A stretch of DNA of 64,000 nt, taken from assembly GCA_009780435.1 (NCBI GenBank), contig WRAB01000014.1, forward strand, positions 1 to 64,000. The letters are read 5' to 3'. The notes beneath the pieces were generated by a model. It was not told where the DNA came from and ran no database searches. It saw only the letters and a program-made list of their open reading frames with translations. A program made the translations under genes and the position numbers. This stretch comes from Oscillospiraceae bacterium (GTDB lineage: Bacteria > Bacillota > Clostridia > Oscillospirales > Oscillospiraceae). This document shows positions 42,060 to 53,282 of this stretch, one piece after another (the stretch's first letter is position 1; every line of letters begins with the position of its first letter).

Positions 42060-42641
42060 ATGAACATCTATCACGACATCAGCCCGGGGCGCATCCAACC
42101 ACACGACTTTGTTGCCGTCATCGAGATACCCAAGGGCAGCAAGACCAAGTACGAGATGGACAAAGAGACGGGACTCATGGAGATGGATCGGGTACTCTAC
42201 ACCTCCACCCATTATCCGAGCAACTACGGCTTCATCCCCCGCACCTACGCCGACGATGACGATCCCCTGGATGTGTTGGTCATCTGCTCGGAGGTGCTGC
42301 ACCCCATGAGCCTGGTCCGGTGCTATCCCATCGGCGTCATCCAGATGATCGACAATGGCCGGGCCGATGAGAAAATCATCGCCGTCCCCTTCGGCGACCC
42401 CACCTATAACGTCTACCGGTGCGTCCATGCCCTGCCCCGCCACGTCACCGACGAGATGCACCACTTCTTCACGGTCTACAAGGCTCTGGAAAACAAGGAG
42501 ACCGCCGTGGACGAGGTCATGGGCGACCAAGACGCCCTGCGGATTATTGAGCGTTCGATTAAGACGTATAACGATAAGTTCGGCGAGGTGCCGGATGTGC
42601 GGGAGAGCTGGAGACGGGAGCGGTTGGAGAGTGACCGGTGA
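42060..42641 (+). CDS. ppa: inorganic pyrophosphatase, family I
   Basis: The 193-residue soluble enzyme hydrolyses pyrophosphate made in biosynthesis. The family I metal site DDDDPLDVLV (about 75-84) and the conserved YPSNYGFIPRTY precede it, with GDPTYN and later helices as usual. Most Firmicutes use family II enzymes, so a family I PPase is the less common type here but occurs in Clostridia. ATG 42060 follows GAGAGGAAG. With PPDK in the same window, which releases or uses pyrophosphate, the PPi pool is likely to matter in this organism. Confidence 0.95.
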   Translation: MNIYHDISPGRIQPHDFVAVIEIPKGSKTKYEMDKETGLMEMDRVLYTSTHYPSNYGFIPRTYADDDDPLDVLVICSEVLHPMSLVRCYPIGVIQMIDNGRADEKIIAVPFGDPTYNVYRCVHALPRHVTDEMHHFFTVYKALENKETAVDEVMGDQDALRIIERSIKTYNDKFGEVPDVRESWRRERLESDR

Positions 42642-42768: not shown

Positions 42769-45570
42769 TTAATCTACATCTTCTGATGGGGAGGTCTGCT
42801 GTTTTGGGCGTTGGACCATGAAATACCAGCCAGCACCACCTCCGGCAAGTACAACAACAGCAAACAGAAGCGCGATAGCTGTCACATCGTCTCTTCCCGG
42901 ATCTGGCGCTTCAACGTAGTACGCTTCTGCATCTTCTAGCGGTTCGGGGTCGTATAACCCCACATCTTCTAACACTTCGGGGTAATACGTTTCTGTATCT
43001 TCTGCCGGGGCCGGGCCATACATGATCGTGTCGTCTCGATCTTCGGAACAGTGGGTGATTACAATTTCTTGGATTTCCTCAGTTCTCATATGAACTGTGA
43101 AGGCAATGCCCGCATATTCTTGACCGAAATAATAAGTTCTCCGGCCTCTGTACTCCTCAATGTCCACAGGCTGACCTAAAACCGCTATCACCTCTTCCAT
43201 TGTGGAATCTTCAGTGATTCCCCCCGGCAGTTCTATGGAAAAGGAGTTATCCGGGTTAGAAAAATCAAGATCAACGCTCACCACAAAAGTATGAGCCAGT
43301 GGACGTATCTCCTCATCGTAATTGCGAAGTCGCGTCCGAATAAGAGCATCCCCTCTGGTTATGCCAATGCCACTTCCCCGCGCCGTCGGACCTATGTGCA
43401 TACCGGGATCTGAAAAGTACCAACCGTTTTCCACAAAAGCTTCCATTGGAGCGGGCAGACGATATAGATCCCCGTCAATTTTTACGATAAAGCTGTTCAA
43501 ATCATCGCTCAAACTCGTTGGTGCTTCATAGTTGCGCACAGAGATGGGGAAATCATCCGCCGCAAACTGGGGAATTTCCACCCGTTGTTCCGTGCGGTTA
43601 TCGCGCATAGATAGACCAACAACTAAATTGGTCTCCAGATCAACCGTAACACTCAAAGAAATGCCCTCTGCAGAGTAGCTCAGTGTTCGGAGGGGAGCGT
43701 GGTCTGTATACGAGTCCGGTTCGCCGTATGCTGCAAGAACTTCTTCATAGGTAGAGCCCATCGTGATATTTTGAGGAAATACAAGTGGGATTCTGCCGTG
43801 CCAAGCCTCCATTGTGCTAATGTACCGAACTACGCTTTCGCTTAAGGGAAGTTCCTCTTCCGTGGGGTTGAAAAAGGTTACACGGATTGTCTGATCCCCA
43901 TTTCTTAGATCCGTGCCGCGGCTGCGTGTTCTTGGGGCTACTATCACCTCGTCTAAATCTTCCCCTTCCCAACCATCTGCCGCAAGCTCAGAAAAGGGAG
44001 TCGATAGGGTGTATAAGACCCCGTTCAAACTGAACATGAAACTAAACATATCATCACTCAGCCCCTCTGGCGCCGGAGCGATTGGGCCGGTGGGCAGGGG
44101 GACCTCAGGGGCCGGCCGCCGGTCACTAAATGCGTCTCGTATGGAGCGGTCGCTCATGCCCATATTCATACTGATGACCAAATCGGTTGTCCGGTCGATG
44201 CGCATAAACGCATAGCCGAAATCCATCTGATATCGAAGCAACTCCGTTGTGCCTTCAAGCGAATCCTCCCTGCGGGTTGGTTCTCCGTGGATTGCGAGAA
44301 GCGCCTCATAGGGCATCCCTATTGTTATATTTCCCGGCAAGGTAACATGCGGTGGCCCAGTATGGTCAAAGCGTGTAAAGATAGCATAGACATAGGTCTC
44401 ATTTAAAGGCAGTTCCTCTCCCGTCAAGTTGATAAAATGCACAATCATACTCTGGTTTTCGTTTCGTATTTGCAGATTCGCCCTGCGCCCACGTGGATTT
44501 ACCATAAAACTAGATGCGACCCAGCCCCTTGCCTCCAGTTCGGAAAAGGGGATCGGAAAGGTGTACAACTCGCCGTTTAAACTGAATGTCAAGCTCTCTA
44601 AATCGTCGCTTAAGCCCTCCACCGGAACGCCTTGGGACGGTTCAATTTGGGAGCCTATCTCGGGCGCCACTGGCGAATCAATTTCGACATCGGCGCCAAA
44701 GGCGTGGAATATAAACTCGCTCGTCTCGCTCACGACGAGCTCTTCCCCCTCAATATCGACCCACAGCTGCATGTCTGTTGCGAGGGAGAGCGGATTGCTC
44801 GCAAGATCCGTCACGATGGTCATTTGCACATCGTCCAGAAAAAATGCAAAATCAACGCCGGGCTCTCCAAGATCTTCTAAAATATCGCCCATGGACTCCA
44901 GCGCAAAATCCGTAAGCGTCCGCCCGTCTAGCACAACAAACATCACCCTGGTATCATCCACTTCTTCGATTTCCACAGTCCGAACGGCTTCCAACTCAAT
45001 TTCAGGCATGTCGAGGATATCATCGGAGACCTCTTCGAACAAATCCTCCGCTGTCGCCGGGGGAAGGGGAATTTCCTCGCCATCAAAAAATACAAAAAAT
45101 TGCATCTCCCCGTCTTCTATCTCTATGTACATCTCCAAAATATTCGAACCAAAGCCGAACCCAGCCGCATGAATCATATGCATGATAATGGCCGCCTGCA
45201 TATCGTCTCCATCAACAATCATTTTTATGTTTCCGCTAGTATGCATAGCAATACTGCCCTCATCTAGGAACTCCATGTTCCTTCTCACAGAGAAATCGAT
45301 GTCATAAGCCCCCGAAGCCCCCGGCTCAATTGCGAGCCGTTGCATGGCGTCTTCATAAGCCTGAAGCGCCAATACTGCGTCAACGTCCACATCATAATAA
45401 GGCGGCACATTTACATCATTATATACATCATCGGTTGCGGGTTCTTCTGTACACGCTACCAGTGCCATACTCATGGCAAATAGAAGGAGAATGGCCCCGA
45501 AAACAGTGGCGGCACGGCGCAGACATGTTTGCGTACATCGGCAAAAAAATCCAAAATCCCAGGCACCCAT
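42769..45570 (-). CDS. exported protein with three tandem copies of an unrecognised domain
   Basis: The 933-residue protein has an export signal ending in a lipobox-like ALVAC (Cys40), a first domain (about 85-300) that looks like a LolA/DUF6612-type lipoprotein domain, then three homologous units of about 155 residues beginning near 319, 503 and 686. Each starts (G/S)LSDD...SF, has a LYT/LYR...PF(S)EL...GW stretch and ends with a G-I-T...YEEVL...G(E/Q)P hairpin like that of SmpA/BamE folds. An acidic linker (845-893) leads to a C-terminal membrane helix (about 896-918) and a short basic tail. I do not recognise the repeat as a named family. ATG 45570 follows AGGAG. It is a single gene. Confidence 0.85.
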   Translation of the reverse strand: MGAWDFGFFCRCTQTCLRRAATVFGAILLLFAMSMALVACTEEPATDDVYNDVNVPPYYDVDVDAVLALQAYEDAMQRLAIEPGASGAYDIDFSVRRNMEFLDEGSIAMHTSGNIKMIVDGDDMQAAIIMHMIHAAGFGFGSNILEMYIEIEDGEMQFFVFFDGEEIPLPPATAEDLFEEVSDDILDMPEIELEAVRTVEIEEVDDTRVMFVVLDGRTLTDFALESMGDILEDLGEPGVDFAFFLDDVQMTIVTDLASNPLSLATDMQLWVDIEGEELVVSETSEFIFHAFGADVEIDSPVAPEIGSQIEPSQGVPVEGLSDDLESLTFSLNGELYTFPIPFSELEARGWVASSFMVNPRGRRANLQIRNENQSMIVHFINLTGEELPLNETYVYAIFTRFDHTGPPHVTLPGNITIGMPYEALLAIHGEPTRREDSLEGTTELLRYQMDFGYAFMRIDRTTDLVISMNMGMSDRSIRDAFSDRRPAPEVPLPTGPIAPAPEGLSDDMFSFMFSLNGVLYTLSTPFSELAADGWEGEDLDEVIVAPRTRSRGTDLRNGDQTIRVTFFNPTEEELPLSESVVRYISTMEAWHGRIPLVFPQNITMGSTYEEVLAAYGEPDSYTDHAPLRTLSYSAEGISLSVTVDLETNLVVGLSMRDNRTEQRVEIPQFAADDFPISVRNYEAPTSLSDDLNSFIVKIDGDLYRLPAPMEAFVENGWYFSDPGMHIGPTARGSGIGITRGDALIRTRLRNYDEEIRPLAHTFVVSVDLDFSNPDNSFSIELPGGITEDSTMEEVIAVLGQPVDIEEYRGRRTYYFGQEYAGIAFTVHMRTEEIQEIVITHCSEDRDDTIMYGPAPAEDTETYYPEVLEDVGLYDPEPLEDAEAYYVEAPDPGRDDVTAIALLFAVVVLAGGGAGWYFMVQRPKQQTSPSEDVD

Positions 45571-45795
45571 TTTTATTTCTCCTATTCAAAATCTAAATTT
45601 GGCTCGCCACATCAAACAAATTGGGAGAGCGTGGCGAATCCCTAATACTGCGGTCAGCATACCATAAAGATCCAGATAGATCAACAATGCCACTCTGAAA
45701 TAGGGTGGCATTGTGCACTTGTTTTATATTTTGCATAATTGACCAAAATCCGGTCACCCTATGGGTACTAGATTGCCCATTTGGGAGGGATTTCT

Positions 45796-46809
45796 TTGAC
45801 GAATCGGCGACTGGGGGACGCAACCCTTGCATTTGGCACGCCCCCTGTGCTCATCGGTCACGCCGCCGTGGCGGGGAAGCGGGAGGGCGAGGGGCCGTTA
45901 GGCTCCAGCTTTGACCATATCAGTGCCGACTCCTACTGGGGGGAGGCGACCTGGGAAAAGGCCGAGAGCACTATGCAGCGCACGGCTTTCGCCTTAGCGG
46001 CGGATAAGGCGGGGATCGCCCCCCGGACGATTGATTTTCTTTTTGCGGGGGACCTGCTCAACCAGTGTATCGGATCCACCTTTGGCAGCAGAGATAGTGA
46101 CATCCCATTTTTCGGCCTCTTCGGGGCCTGTTCCACCATGGGGGAGGCCCTCTGCTTGGCGGCCATGTCCATTGCGGGAGGATTCGCCCAACATGCGGCG
46201 GCGGTGACCTCATCCCACTTCTGCTCTGCCGAACGGCAGTTTCGGTTCCCTCTGGAATACGGCGGCCAGCGGACGCCCACCAGCCAGTGGACAGTCAGCG
46301 GCGCGGGCGCTTCGATCTTGGCGGCAACGGGCGACGGGCCGGCCATCACCCACGTCACGCCGGGGAAGATTGTCGATGCGGGGATCACAGACGCCAACAA
46401 CATGGGGGCGGCCATGGCCCCCGCCGCCTATGACACCATCCGCCAGCACTTTGCCGACACGGGCCGGACACCGGACGACTACGATCTCATCGTCACGGGG
46501 GATTTGGGGTCCCTCGGCCACGCCGTAGTGGTGGATTTCTTCAAAAAAGACGGGGTGACCATGCGCACCTATCAGGACTGCGGGCTCATGATCTTTGACC
46601 GCCAAAAGCAGCAGGTGGACGCCGGGGGCTCCGGTTGCGGATGTGCGGCCACGGTGCTAAACGGGTATCTCCTCAACGCCATGCGGGCAGGCAAGTGGAA
46701 CCGGATTCTATTCTGCCCCACAGGGGCGCTGATGAGCGTGACCTCCAGCCAGCAGGGAGAGAGCATTCCGGGCATCTGCCACGCCGTGGCGATTTCTACC
46801 ATCGGATAG
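45796..46809 (+). CDS. spoVAD: stage V sporulation protein AD
   Basis: The 337-residue protein belongs to the thiolase-like SpoVAD family, which binds dipicolinic acid and helps import it into the forespore. Family features are GSSFDHISADSYWGE, GDLLNQCIGSTFG, FFGLFGACSTMGE and the late GGSGCGCAATVLNGYLL. Length matches (about 338). The start is TTG 45796, six to seven bases after GGGAGGG. SpoVAE follows 12 bp after its stop, but SpoVAC, normally first in this operon, is missing: the gene upstream lies on the other strand and is unrelated. Confidence 0.95.
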   Translation: MTNRRLGDATLAFGTPPVLIGHAAVAGKREGEGPLGSSFDHISADSYWGEATWEKAESTMQRTAFALAADKAGIAPRTIDFLFAGDLLNQCIGSTFGSRDSDIPFFGLFGACSTMGEALCLAAMSIAGGFAQHAAAVTSSHFCSAERQFRFPLEYGGQRTPTSQWTVSGAGASILAATGDGPAITHVTPGKIVDAGITDANNMGAAMAPAAYDTIRQHFADTGRTPDDYDLIVTGDLGSLGHAVVVDFFKKDGVTMRTYQDCGLMIFDRQKQQVDAGGSGCGCAATVLNGYLLNAMRAGKWNRILFCPTGALMSVTSSQQGESIPGICHAVAISTIG

Positions 46810-46821
46810 GGGGAGTTGGAT

Positions 46822-47190
46822 ATGTACCAGATATTGCTGCCGTATATCAAGGCCTTTGTGGCGGGGGGAATCCTCTGCGCCATTGGGCAGGTGCTAATTG
46901 ACCGGACGAAACTGACCCCGGCTCGGATATTGGTCGTCTATGTGGTGGCGGGCGTCATATTGGGGGCCGTGGGGGTGTATCAGCCCTTTGTAGAGTGGGC
47001 CGGCGCCGGGGCGACAGTACCCCTGACGGGATTCGGCAACGTATTGGCCCAGGGGATGAAAGACGCCGTCACCGAGAAGGGGATCCTGGGGATATTCAGC
47101 GGCGCCTTCACCGCAGGCGCCGCCGGGATCGGTGCGGCGGTGATCTTCGGGTATCTGGCCGCCGTGGTGTTTCGACCGGAGGAGAAATAA
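46822..47190 (+). CDS. spoVAE: stage V sporulation protein AE
   Basis: The 122-residue membrane protein has about four hydrophobic segments and the family pattern LPYIKAFVAGGILCAIGQVLIDRTKLTPARIL, TGFGNVLAQGMKDAV and GILGIFSGAFTAGAAGIGAA. SpoVAE is part of the membrane channel that moves Ca-dipicolinate during sporulation and germination. ATG 46822 follows GGGGGAG. It is cotranscribed with spoVAD and is followed by a palindromic repeat element instead of further spore genes. Confidence 0.95.
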   Translation: MYQILLPYIKAFVAGGILCAIGQVLIDRTKLTPARILVVYVVAGVILGAVGVYQPFVEWAGAGATVPLTGFGNVLAQGMKDAVTEKGILGIFSGAFTAGAAGIGAAVIFGYLAAVVFRPEEK

Positions 47191-50834: not shown

Positions 50835-53282
50835 ATGGTTCACCGAACAAAGCGCTTCGGCGCAATCTTTCTCATCTTGGCAATCCTTTTCGCCTCTATC
50901 CCGGCCCTAGCCGCCCCCTATGAGGCGGTATTTGAGCTGGGGAACAGCCCCATCAACAGCCTAAACGGCGGCAAGATGGCCCAAGCGGGCGACGATCTCT
51001 ACTGGGCCGACGAGACCGGCATCTACTTAGACGACACGCGGATCACCACGGAGCCCGGTGCAAACCTCAACGTCATGGGCGGTGGCCTCTATTACACCTT
51101 GGCAGGGGATGTAACCCTCCTGCGCCGGATTGCACTGCCGGACGGTGCGCCCCAGACGATTCTGGAGTGGAACACGGCCATTGACCAGCTCTACATCACA
51201 GGAGATTCCATGGCCCTGCTTCTCTCGGAGGAGCAGGTCTATCGCGCAAATCTTCAAGACGGCGAGATCCTAGCCGATGAGACGGCCTTTTCCGTGACCG
51301 GGTTCATCCCCACAGCCCACGGCACCATCTATGCCGCAGGATATTTGGGGAACTTCACCCTGTTCGCGGACGATCAATATATCGAATCCGGCGTCACCAA
51401 CTTCTTCACAGAAGAAGACTTTCTCATCCTCCGCCGGGGGATTTCTGACTACCAAGTGGCCATTGACACCCTCTTCACCACCGGCGGCCCCGCGGTGATC
51501 GCCCCCTATTCCCTGGGGGACATCCGGATTACCCCCTGGAGCCACAGCGCACATGGTGGCGAGGATTGTCCCACCTGCGCCGAGGCCCTGGAAGACTTCC
51601 TGGCCGGGATCGTATATGACCCCATCATCACCCCTCTACATGTTACCACTCACACCCTGCCTCTGACCCAATCCCAGCAGAACGTGGTCAAACGGGCCAG
51701 ACAGATGGCGGAGATCCGCTGGACACCGCTACAAAATATCACGGGCTGGCGGGGCAATATGACCTATTACGCCGGACAGACCGTTGTAGGAATCCCCTAC
51801 GCCCAGCCGGTGACAAGGGGCCGTTATATCCCATGGCAGGCGACCCTCTCCACTTTTGCCGCCGCCGTACAGGATATCAACAGTGTAATGTACACCAGCT
51901 TCTCCTTCAACGGCACCCACGCCACCCGCGCCCCCTATTTCGGAACCGACTGTTCCGGCTTTGTGTCCTGGGCGCTGGAGCACCCGGTTCGCACCCACAC
52001 GGGTTCGTTCCCAAACCACGCCCAGCGGATCACACAGAACCTCTACGCCCTCCAGGTGGGCGATGTGTTCAACGCCTCCCACCACAATAAACTTGTGACG
52101 GCGGTGGAGTTCGACGCAAACGGCAATCTGGTCGCCGTGGAGATTATGGATCAGTCCATCCCCACCCCCCGCCTCCGTCGGTGGGGTGCGGGCGGCAACG
52201 CCGGGAATCTCCAGACGTTAATCGCCCGGACGTTTCAGGCGGGCTTTGCCCTGTACCGGAGCAATACCATCGGCAACGTCAGCTTCACCCCGGATCCCGC
52301 CGTGGATGTGGGCCTGGGCCAGCGGCATACCATCTCCGCCTCTGCCGGCCCCGGCGGTACCGTCACCCCTGCGGGATACGTCAACGTCATGGAGGGCGCC
52401 GATCAGACCTTTGTCTTTATGCCCAACCAGGGCTTTGCCATCAATCGTGTATGGATAGACGGTGTAGATGTGGGGCCGCTCAACCAGGTCACCTTCCCCA
52501 ATGTCACCACGGACCACACGGTCTCCGTGGAATTTGTCCTGACGGGCAGTCCCTTCAGCGATGTCCGGGAGGGGTCCTGGTATCACCCCCATGTGTTGTA
52601 TGTGTTTGAACACGGCCTCATGAACGGCACCTCCCAGACCACCTTCGAGCCCCATACCATCACCACTCGAAACATGTTTGTGACTATCCTGGGCCGCATG
52701 GCGGAGATTGACCCGCTGTACTACGCCCACACCGGCATCATCACCGGCAGCGTCGTCAACCACCGGGCTGGCCCCGGCACAAACTATGCAATTATCGGCT
52801 CCTTCCCCCGGGACACTTCGCTGCGGATCACCGGGGCGCGAAACGGCTGGTTCCAGGTCATCTACGGCACCCGAATCGGCTACGTCTCCGGAGACTTTTT
52901 CGCCCCACAGCCCGGTACCCACCCGGACGTGGCCCCGGGACGGTTCTACACCTCCTACGTGGAGTGGGCCAGTCGAGCCGGGATCGTCCTCGGCACCGGA
53001 GACGGTAATTTCCTCCCCGCTGACAGCATGACCCGCCAGGAGATGGCCGTATTCCTCCACCGCTACAGTACGGCCATGGGGATTACCCTCCAACAGGACA
53101 CTTCGCTCCCCCTCTTCCACGACCTGAATACCGTGGCCCCCTGGGCCAGAGACGCCGTAATCGCCCTCCAACGGGCCGGTATCATCCAGGGCGCAGGAGA
53201 CGGCAGTTTCGATCCCCTGGGCCACAGCGACCGGGCCAGCGTGACCAGTATGATTGCGAATTTCCATCGGATTTATGGGTAG
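50835..53282 (+). CDS. secreted SLH/SH3 protein with NlpC/P60-like centre
   Basis: The 815-residue protein has a signal peptide (cut after ALAAP), a beta-propeller-like N-part (about 30-235), and a region with FGTDCSGFVSWAL (Cys373), the catalytic-cysteine motif of NlpC/P60 peptidoglycan hydrolases, with candidate histidines in ASHHNKLV. An InlB-type repeat domain (about 490-545) follows. The tail has one SLH motif (about 553-610), a bacterial SH3 domain (VNHRAGPGTNYAIIGSF) and two more SLH motifs. It is probably anchored to wall polymers and acts on peptidoglycan. ATG 50835 follows GCGAGGT; rex lies 14 bp upstream. Its tail is homologous to that of the protein at 55104. Confidence 0.9.
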   Translation: MVHRTKRFGAIFLILAILFASIPALAAPYEAVFELGNSPINSLNGGKMAQAGDDLYWADETGIYLDDTRITTEPGANLNVMGGGLYYTLAGDVTLLRRIALPDGAPQTILEWNTAIDQLYITGDSMALLLSEEQVYRANLQDGEILADETAFSVTGFIPTAHGTIYAAGYLGNFTLFADDQYIESGVTNFFTEEDFLILRRGISDYQVAIDTLFTTGGPAVIAPYSLGDIRITPWSHSAHGGEDCPTCAEALEDFLAGIVYDPIITPLHVTTHTLPLTQSQQNVVKRARQMAEIRWTPLQNITGWRGNMTYYAGQTVVGIPYAQPVTRGRYIPWQATLSTFAAAVQDINSVMYTSFSFNGTHATRAPYFGTDCSGFVSWALEHPVRTHTGSFPNHAQRITQNLYALQVGDVFNASHHNKLVTAVEFDANGNLVAVEIMDQSIPTPRLRRWGAGGNAGNLQTLIARTFQAGFALYRSNTIGNVSFTPDPAVDVGLGQRHTISASAGPGGTVTPAGYVNVMEGADQTFVFMPNQGFAINRVWIDGVDVGPLNQVTFPNVTTDHTVSVEFVLTGSPFSDVREGSWYHPHVLYVFEHGLMNGTSQTTFEPHTITTRNMFVTILGRMAEIDPLYYAHTGIITGSVVNHRAGPGTNYAIIGSFPRDTSLRITGARNGWFQVIYGTRIGYVSGDFFAPQPGTHPDVAPGRFYTSYVEWASRAGIVLGTGDGNFLPADSMTRQEMAVFLHRYSTAMGITLQQDTSLPLFHDLNTVAPWARDAVIALQRAGIIQGAGDGSFDPLGHSDRASVTSMIANFHRIYG

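Follow-up and report, generated by a model that had tools for sequence, protein, structure and literature searches.

A single minus-strand gene (42769-45570) lies in this part of the window, by which we mean the whole 64,000-nucleotide stretch of DNA analyzed. Its coordinates and the 933-residue length of its product agree exactly with the first-pass annotation. The protein is made up of a lipoprotein signal, a head domain, three repeated units, and a C-terminal hydrophobic helix. We consider this anatomy, detailed below, well supported, and we infer the protein's partner and effect.

42769-45570, minus strand: whole gene, 933 amino acids plus stop; a single open frame with zero internal stops
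45578-45583, minus strand: ribosome-binding site AGGAGA, 7 nt 5' of the ATG; rated good
45451-45570, minus strand: lipoprotein signal peptide, residues 1-40, lipobox LVAC with Cys40 (sequence; LAAC in L005, L006, and L007)
44671-45393, minus strand: LolA/LppX-like head domain, residues 60-300 (AlphaFold model and VIA fold matches)
44155-44619, minus strand: unit 1, residues 318-472 (profile domain, repeat alignment)
43603-44070, minus strand: unit 2, residues 501-656 (profile domain, repeat alignment; model pLDDT 95.1)
43522-43602, minus strand: linker from unit 2 to unit 3, residues 657-683 (alignment)
43051-43521, minus strand: unit 3, residues 684-840 (profile domain, repeat alignment)
42892-43035, minus strand: acidic, Pro/Tyr-rich linker, residues 846-893 (sequence; low confidence in the model)
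42820-42888, minus strand: C-terminal hydrophobic helix, residues about 895-917, then RPKQQ (hydropathy)

A promoter scan found no sigma-70 promoter upstream of the gene. The export signal noted earlier is more exactly a lipoprotein signal, with a cysteine at the cleavage site that is conserved in homologues from sister species. The sequence likewise shows the acidic linker and a hydrophobic helix at the C terminus, and residues 846-933, helix included, have low confidence in the full-length AlphaFold model. The chain carries an anchoring signal at each end, as had been proposed: the lipobox at the N terminus and the hydrophobic helix at the C terminus.

The gene lies between a pyrophosphatase gene (42060-42641) and spoVAD, which is accompanied by a SpoVAC/SpoVAEB-family gene (45781-47187). 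In sister species, ypeB directly precedes spoVAD (L101, L102, and L103), the pair reaching the contig end in genome G003. Here the lipoprotein gene, separated from spoVAD by 45571-45780, occupies the place of ypeB, which is found on another contig (G000:C12:75756-76982). On the plus strand just before spoVAD, a 14-pair hairpin followed by a T-rich stretch (45684-45714) has no plus-strand gene directly upstream of it and is perhaps a relic of rearrangement. No conserved partner gene adjoins the lipoprotein gene, and no kinase gene is adjacent; as the neighbors are not conserved partners, position offers no functional hint beyond the rearrangement itself. Further along the window, inspection by eye suggests that an exported 815-residue protein (50835-53282) has S-layer-homology-like repeats and what looks like an NlpC/P60-type motif (FGTDCSGFVSWALEH).

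The three units resemble one another far beyond chance. Pairwise local alignments scored against 500 shuffles, which served as the independent test of the repeats, gave Z values of 41.6 for units 1 and 2 (71/176 identities), 18.9 for units 1 and 3 (38/179), and 24.5 for units 2 and 3 (50/183). A unit profile detected domains beginning at residues 318, 501, and 684, close to the starts near 319, 503, and 686 proposed originally; its E-values (1e-56 for 318-472, 4e-61 for 501-656, and 2e-53 for 684-840) are partly circular because the profile contains these same units. We compared the units structurally by element order and spacing in the full-length AlphaFold model: 12 secondary-structure elements follow the same order in all three, and their starts, counted from the first strand, fall within 3 residues of each other. 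The description of diverged copies kept in register is borne out by both the alignments and the model. The full-length model has a mean pLDDT of 74.6 and a pTM of 0.45, and gives no confident prediction of how the domains are arranged in space.

Three homologous copies are thus present, as first described, but a simple triplication of one unit is not supported by their placement in a 65-row unit tree. Unit 1 pairs with a separate paralogue, L002, its nearest relative (support 100/99), and units 1 and 2 fall among those lipoproteins of the genus that have one unit each (99/95). Unit 3 groups with second-position units of tandem proteins (90/89), a moderate value on a long branch. As judged from the tree, the three units are a mosaic of paralogues. 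In the alignment, the end of the linker running into unit 3 (Y.AP.SL.DDL) resembles that of tandem proteins from other Clostridia; together with the tree placement, this suggests that an old A-B tandem is probably preserved in units 2 and 3, to which unit 1 would be an added A-type copy. No full-length relative was found in three sister genomes, and the 933-residue protein is a lineage-specific mosaic example of its unit family.

Structure prediction of the units and a copy-number survey of Clostridia had been suggested as checks in the first-pass annotation. AlphaFold predicted a single unit (unit 2, from 64 aligned rows) with a pLDDT of 95.1 and a pTM of 0.88, and the same 12 elements recur in all three units. 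In VIA comparisons, the predicted unit matched 4h0a (Z 8.7), 4ifa (Z 8.6), and YjgB (4ygt, Z 8.6), values of 8-9 that lie near the range reachable by unrelated folds. The best Foldseek E-value was 0.011, a remote fold match. A further fold match was to the anti-fungal effector structure 9j9w (Z 7.9), and we attach no functional claim to it. BamE aligned with a modest Z of 5.9 (rmsd 2.7 over 67 residues, mainly in the second half), and BLIP with a Z of 4.1 over 64 residues. We place the predicted fold in the BLIP/BamE-like class; its nearest solved structures are those of CAP_assoc_N (4h0a, 4ifa) and YjgB (4ygt). The earlier suggestion that the terminal hairpin recalls SmpA/BamE-type folds therefore holds for a BamE-like element in the second half, but the unit as a whole, beyond the hairpin, matches BLIP-like folds. 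Comparison of the first and second halves of the unit detected no profile similarity and no internal half-to-half duplication at the level of sequence. The whole-unit fold match comes without such similarity, which makes the full two-repeat BLIP reading a purely structural one.

CAP_assoc_N (PF14504) is the N-terminal domain of secreted CAP/SCP proteins, and its profile recognizes 4ifa and 4h0a over the region matched by the unit. The predicted unit shares this fold (VIA Z 8.6-8.7, rmsd 3.8-4.1 over 130 residues) and the motif G-S/T-x-x-x-V-x-x-x-x-G-x-P, and hhalign gave a remote link of 64% over 49 columns. However, this profile link covers the second half only, no scanned unit has a Pfam match to the family, and no CAP/SCP domain stands behind the units in the 933-residue protein. 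DUF4309 (PF14172), the family of Bacillus subtilis YjgB, whose function is unknown, is similar in fold (Z 8.6 over 129 residues) but weaker in sequence, with an hhalign link of 40% over 21 columns and a Pfam hit in 1/21 units (E 0.13, below the gathering score). Similarity to BLIP and to BamE/SmpA-OmlA (PF04355) extends over only a portion of the unit, chiefly the second half; the unit is about twice the length of BamE, and its Pfam score of 14.3 bits compares with a cut-off of 23.2. The literature searched on PF14504, DUF4309, and DUF6612 yielded nothing informative. The most conserved unit positions (Asn, Pro, Gly, Trp, Tyr, and Ile) look structural, and the unit alignment contains neither a conserved catalytic set nor invariant pocket residues; exposed aromatic or basic residues do not form a conspicuous conserved set in it.

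The head, already recognized as LolA-like, is modeled as a curved half-barrel of antiparallel sheet, with pLDDT mostly 75-95 and weaker loops. VIA matched it to LppX (Z 9.4), LprG (Z 8.9, lipid-bound forms included), RseB (Z 7.9), LolA (Z 7.3), and MucB. It shares the fold of the LppX/LprG/LolA/RseB superfamily, and in this protein it is followed by three units and a C-terminal helix. Heads lacking units occur in three sister species at identities of 42, 36, and 25%; L005 and L006, from two of these genomes, are standalone head lipoproteins, and L007, from the third, has a short extra tail. The protein's own head has no Pfam match, to DUF6612 (PF20316) or otherwise; DUF6612 matched 2/4 genus members (best E 1.6e-5), and hhalign of the head against it gave 1.6%, from small alignments. 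In other Clostridia, DUF6612 heads carry one unit. At the other end of the chain, residues 870-925 match the C terminus of CD1107-like proteins (PF14283) at a sub-threshold E-value of 1.5e-4, covering positions 104-158 of 158 (22.1 bits versus a cut-off of 26), so that only the helix and the GAGWYF..RPKQQ tail are shared. The C-terminal region has 40% identity to a mobile-element-type protein encoded in this genome. The helix and tail (42820-42888) are shared with a CD1107-like protein that the genome encodes on a different contig (L004, 1402-2148).

The unit itself is a widespread, uncatalogued domain of about 155 residues. Searches of Pfam, NCBIfam, PHROGs, PADLOC, and PDB sequences returned no significant match, in agreement with the original view that no named family covers it, and 0/21 units passed a Pfam cut-off; a confident Pfam match of all three units, which would have overturned that view, was not found. 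Nanobody and NCAM matches in the PDB sequence searches were dismissed as weak, chance-level beta-strand matches. The layout is less singular than first thought, since lipoproteins with a head plus one unit (DUF6612 plus unit; L049, E 2e-21, and L054, E 1e-14) exist in other Clostridia. Relatives of the unit are sparse in the organism's own family and order (6/101 and 9/295 genomes, own genome included; the two counts come from different cut-offs, the alignment having been enlarged between searches) but were found in 50 of the 250 genomes (20%) sampled from another family of the same class, which appears from its sequences to be Lachnospiraceae-like. A scan of named genomes found one locus only (L035, Oscillospiraceae MAG Lab288P1bin4), and one scan of viral contigs found no relative.

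Carriers are throughout exported or membrane proteins, usually with one or two copies; among the sampled genomes, only the 933-residue protein has three in one chain. They include single-unit lipoproteins, two of them encoded separately in this genome (L002 and L003), secreted proteins with two tandem units, proteins combining a zinc ribbon, CD225, and one unit (L048 and L062), multi-helix membrane proteins with one unit (L013, L042, and L046), and surface proteins in which a unit accompanies Big_2 (L086) or RCC1 (L085) repeats. In L017, and by sequence in L060, a protein kinase is followed by a membrane helix and two units. In these Ser/Thr kinases (also L087 and L088), the outer part consists of two units in place of PASTA repeats. 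One open reading frame, L015 (922-2004), fuses an apparent C39-peptidase transporter start (YQMEATECGAASLSMIF) to units and is possibly a chimera.

Characterized members of the BLIP/BamE-like fold class bind proteins. Given the absence of a catalytic set, the exported carriers, and the joining of units to kinases and to heads of the lipid-binding type, the simplest interpretation is that the units are protein-binding modules on a membrane scaffold, and the predicted fold class favors protein binding. Of the BLIP-like superfamily, BLIP itself acts by binding other proteins and inhibiting them, a similar action has been proposed for the remaining families, and BLIP, SmpA-OmlA, and PepSY domains have been suggested to bind, often as inhibitors, a partner lying in their own protein or in a different one (PMC2954215). 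We propose, with middling confidence, that the 933-residue protein is a membrane-tethered envelope lipoprotein that combines a lipid-binding-type head with three protein-binding units and acts as a multivalent scaffold or regulator. The N-terminal lipid would hold it at the outer surface of the cell membrane, with the C-terminal helix probably serving as a second tether. The half-barrel head, as modeled, would likely hold a lipid or other hydrophobic ligand, and the three units would most likely be non-catalytic binding modules for envelope partner proteins.

PASTA domains bind cell-wall polymers and sit after the membrane segment in PrkC/Stk1 kinases. Because the units take this very place in L017 and L060, they might instead bind peptidoglycan or teichoic acid and link membrane to wall, and double anchoring would suit such a wall spacer. 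The unit is a different domain from PASTA, however, its fold class is one whose characterized members bind proteins, no set of exposed aromatic or basic residues stands out in it as conserved, and many carriers are one-unit lipoproteins with no other wall part; the 933-residue protein itself has no kinase. We regard wall binding as possible but unlikely. RseB and MucB, which the head resembles, are sensors of envelope stress, and units have been fused repeatedly to kinases and diverse membrane anchors, as would be expected if they sensed a small ligand or stress signal and reported to the head or to a separate kinase. This reading is doubtful, as the units lack invariant pocket residues and the protein has neither a signaling domain of its own nor an adjacent kinase.

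The units might also cover or gate the pocket of their own head, acting as an inhibitor within the same chain. Head-plus-unit fusions in this genus, the DUF6612-plus-unit proteins, and the proposal that BLIP/PepSY-type domains act as inhibitors of a partner domain in their own chain (PMC2954215) point this way, but sister species have heads that lack units, lone units occur in the same genome, and contacts in a full-length model with a pTM of 0.45 are not trustworthy, leaving self-inhibition improbable. That a head lipoprotein gene and unit genes were wrongly joined during assembly into a chimera is scarcely credible: the assembly is a draft of 40 contigs and no full-length relative was found in the three sister genomes, but the unbroken 2.8-kb frame lies well inside a 73-kb contig, the linkers keep the reading frame, the stretch leading into unit 3 is similar to that in tandem proteins from other species, and unit 1 shares just 51% identity with its closest paralogue, so it is no misplaced copy.

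A bolder and rather unlikely reading is that the units are an unrecognized extracytoplasmic receptor domain of Clostridia, replacing PASTA repeats on Ser/Thr kinases and dealt onto lipoproteins, CD225 proteins, and DUF6612 proteins to form one envelope-sensing network, of which the 933-residue protein would be the largest, three-unit form, a decoy or scaffold. The place of the unit on Ser/Thr kinases makes it possible to test directly whether a BLIP/BamE-like module, whose fold is known for holding on to proteins, can act as a bacterial kinase's outer sensor. A domain this common (50/250 genomes) is worth naming, because many surface proteins of gut Clostridia that now count as hypothetical would thereby gain an annotation.
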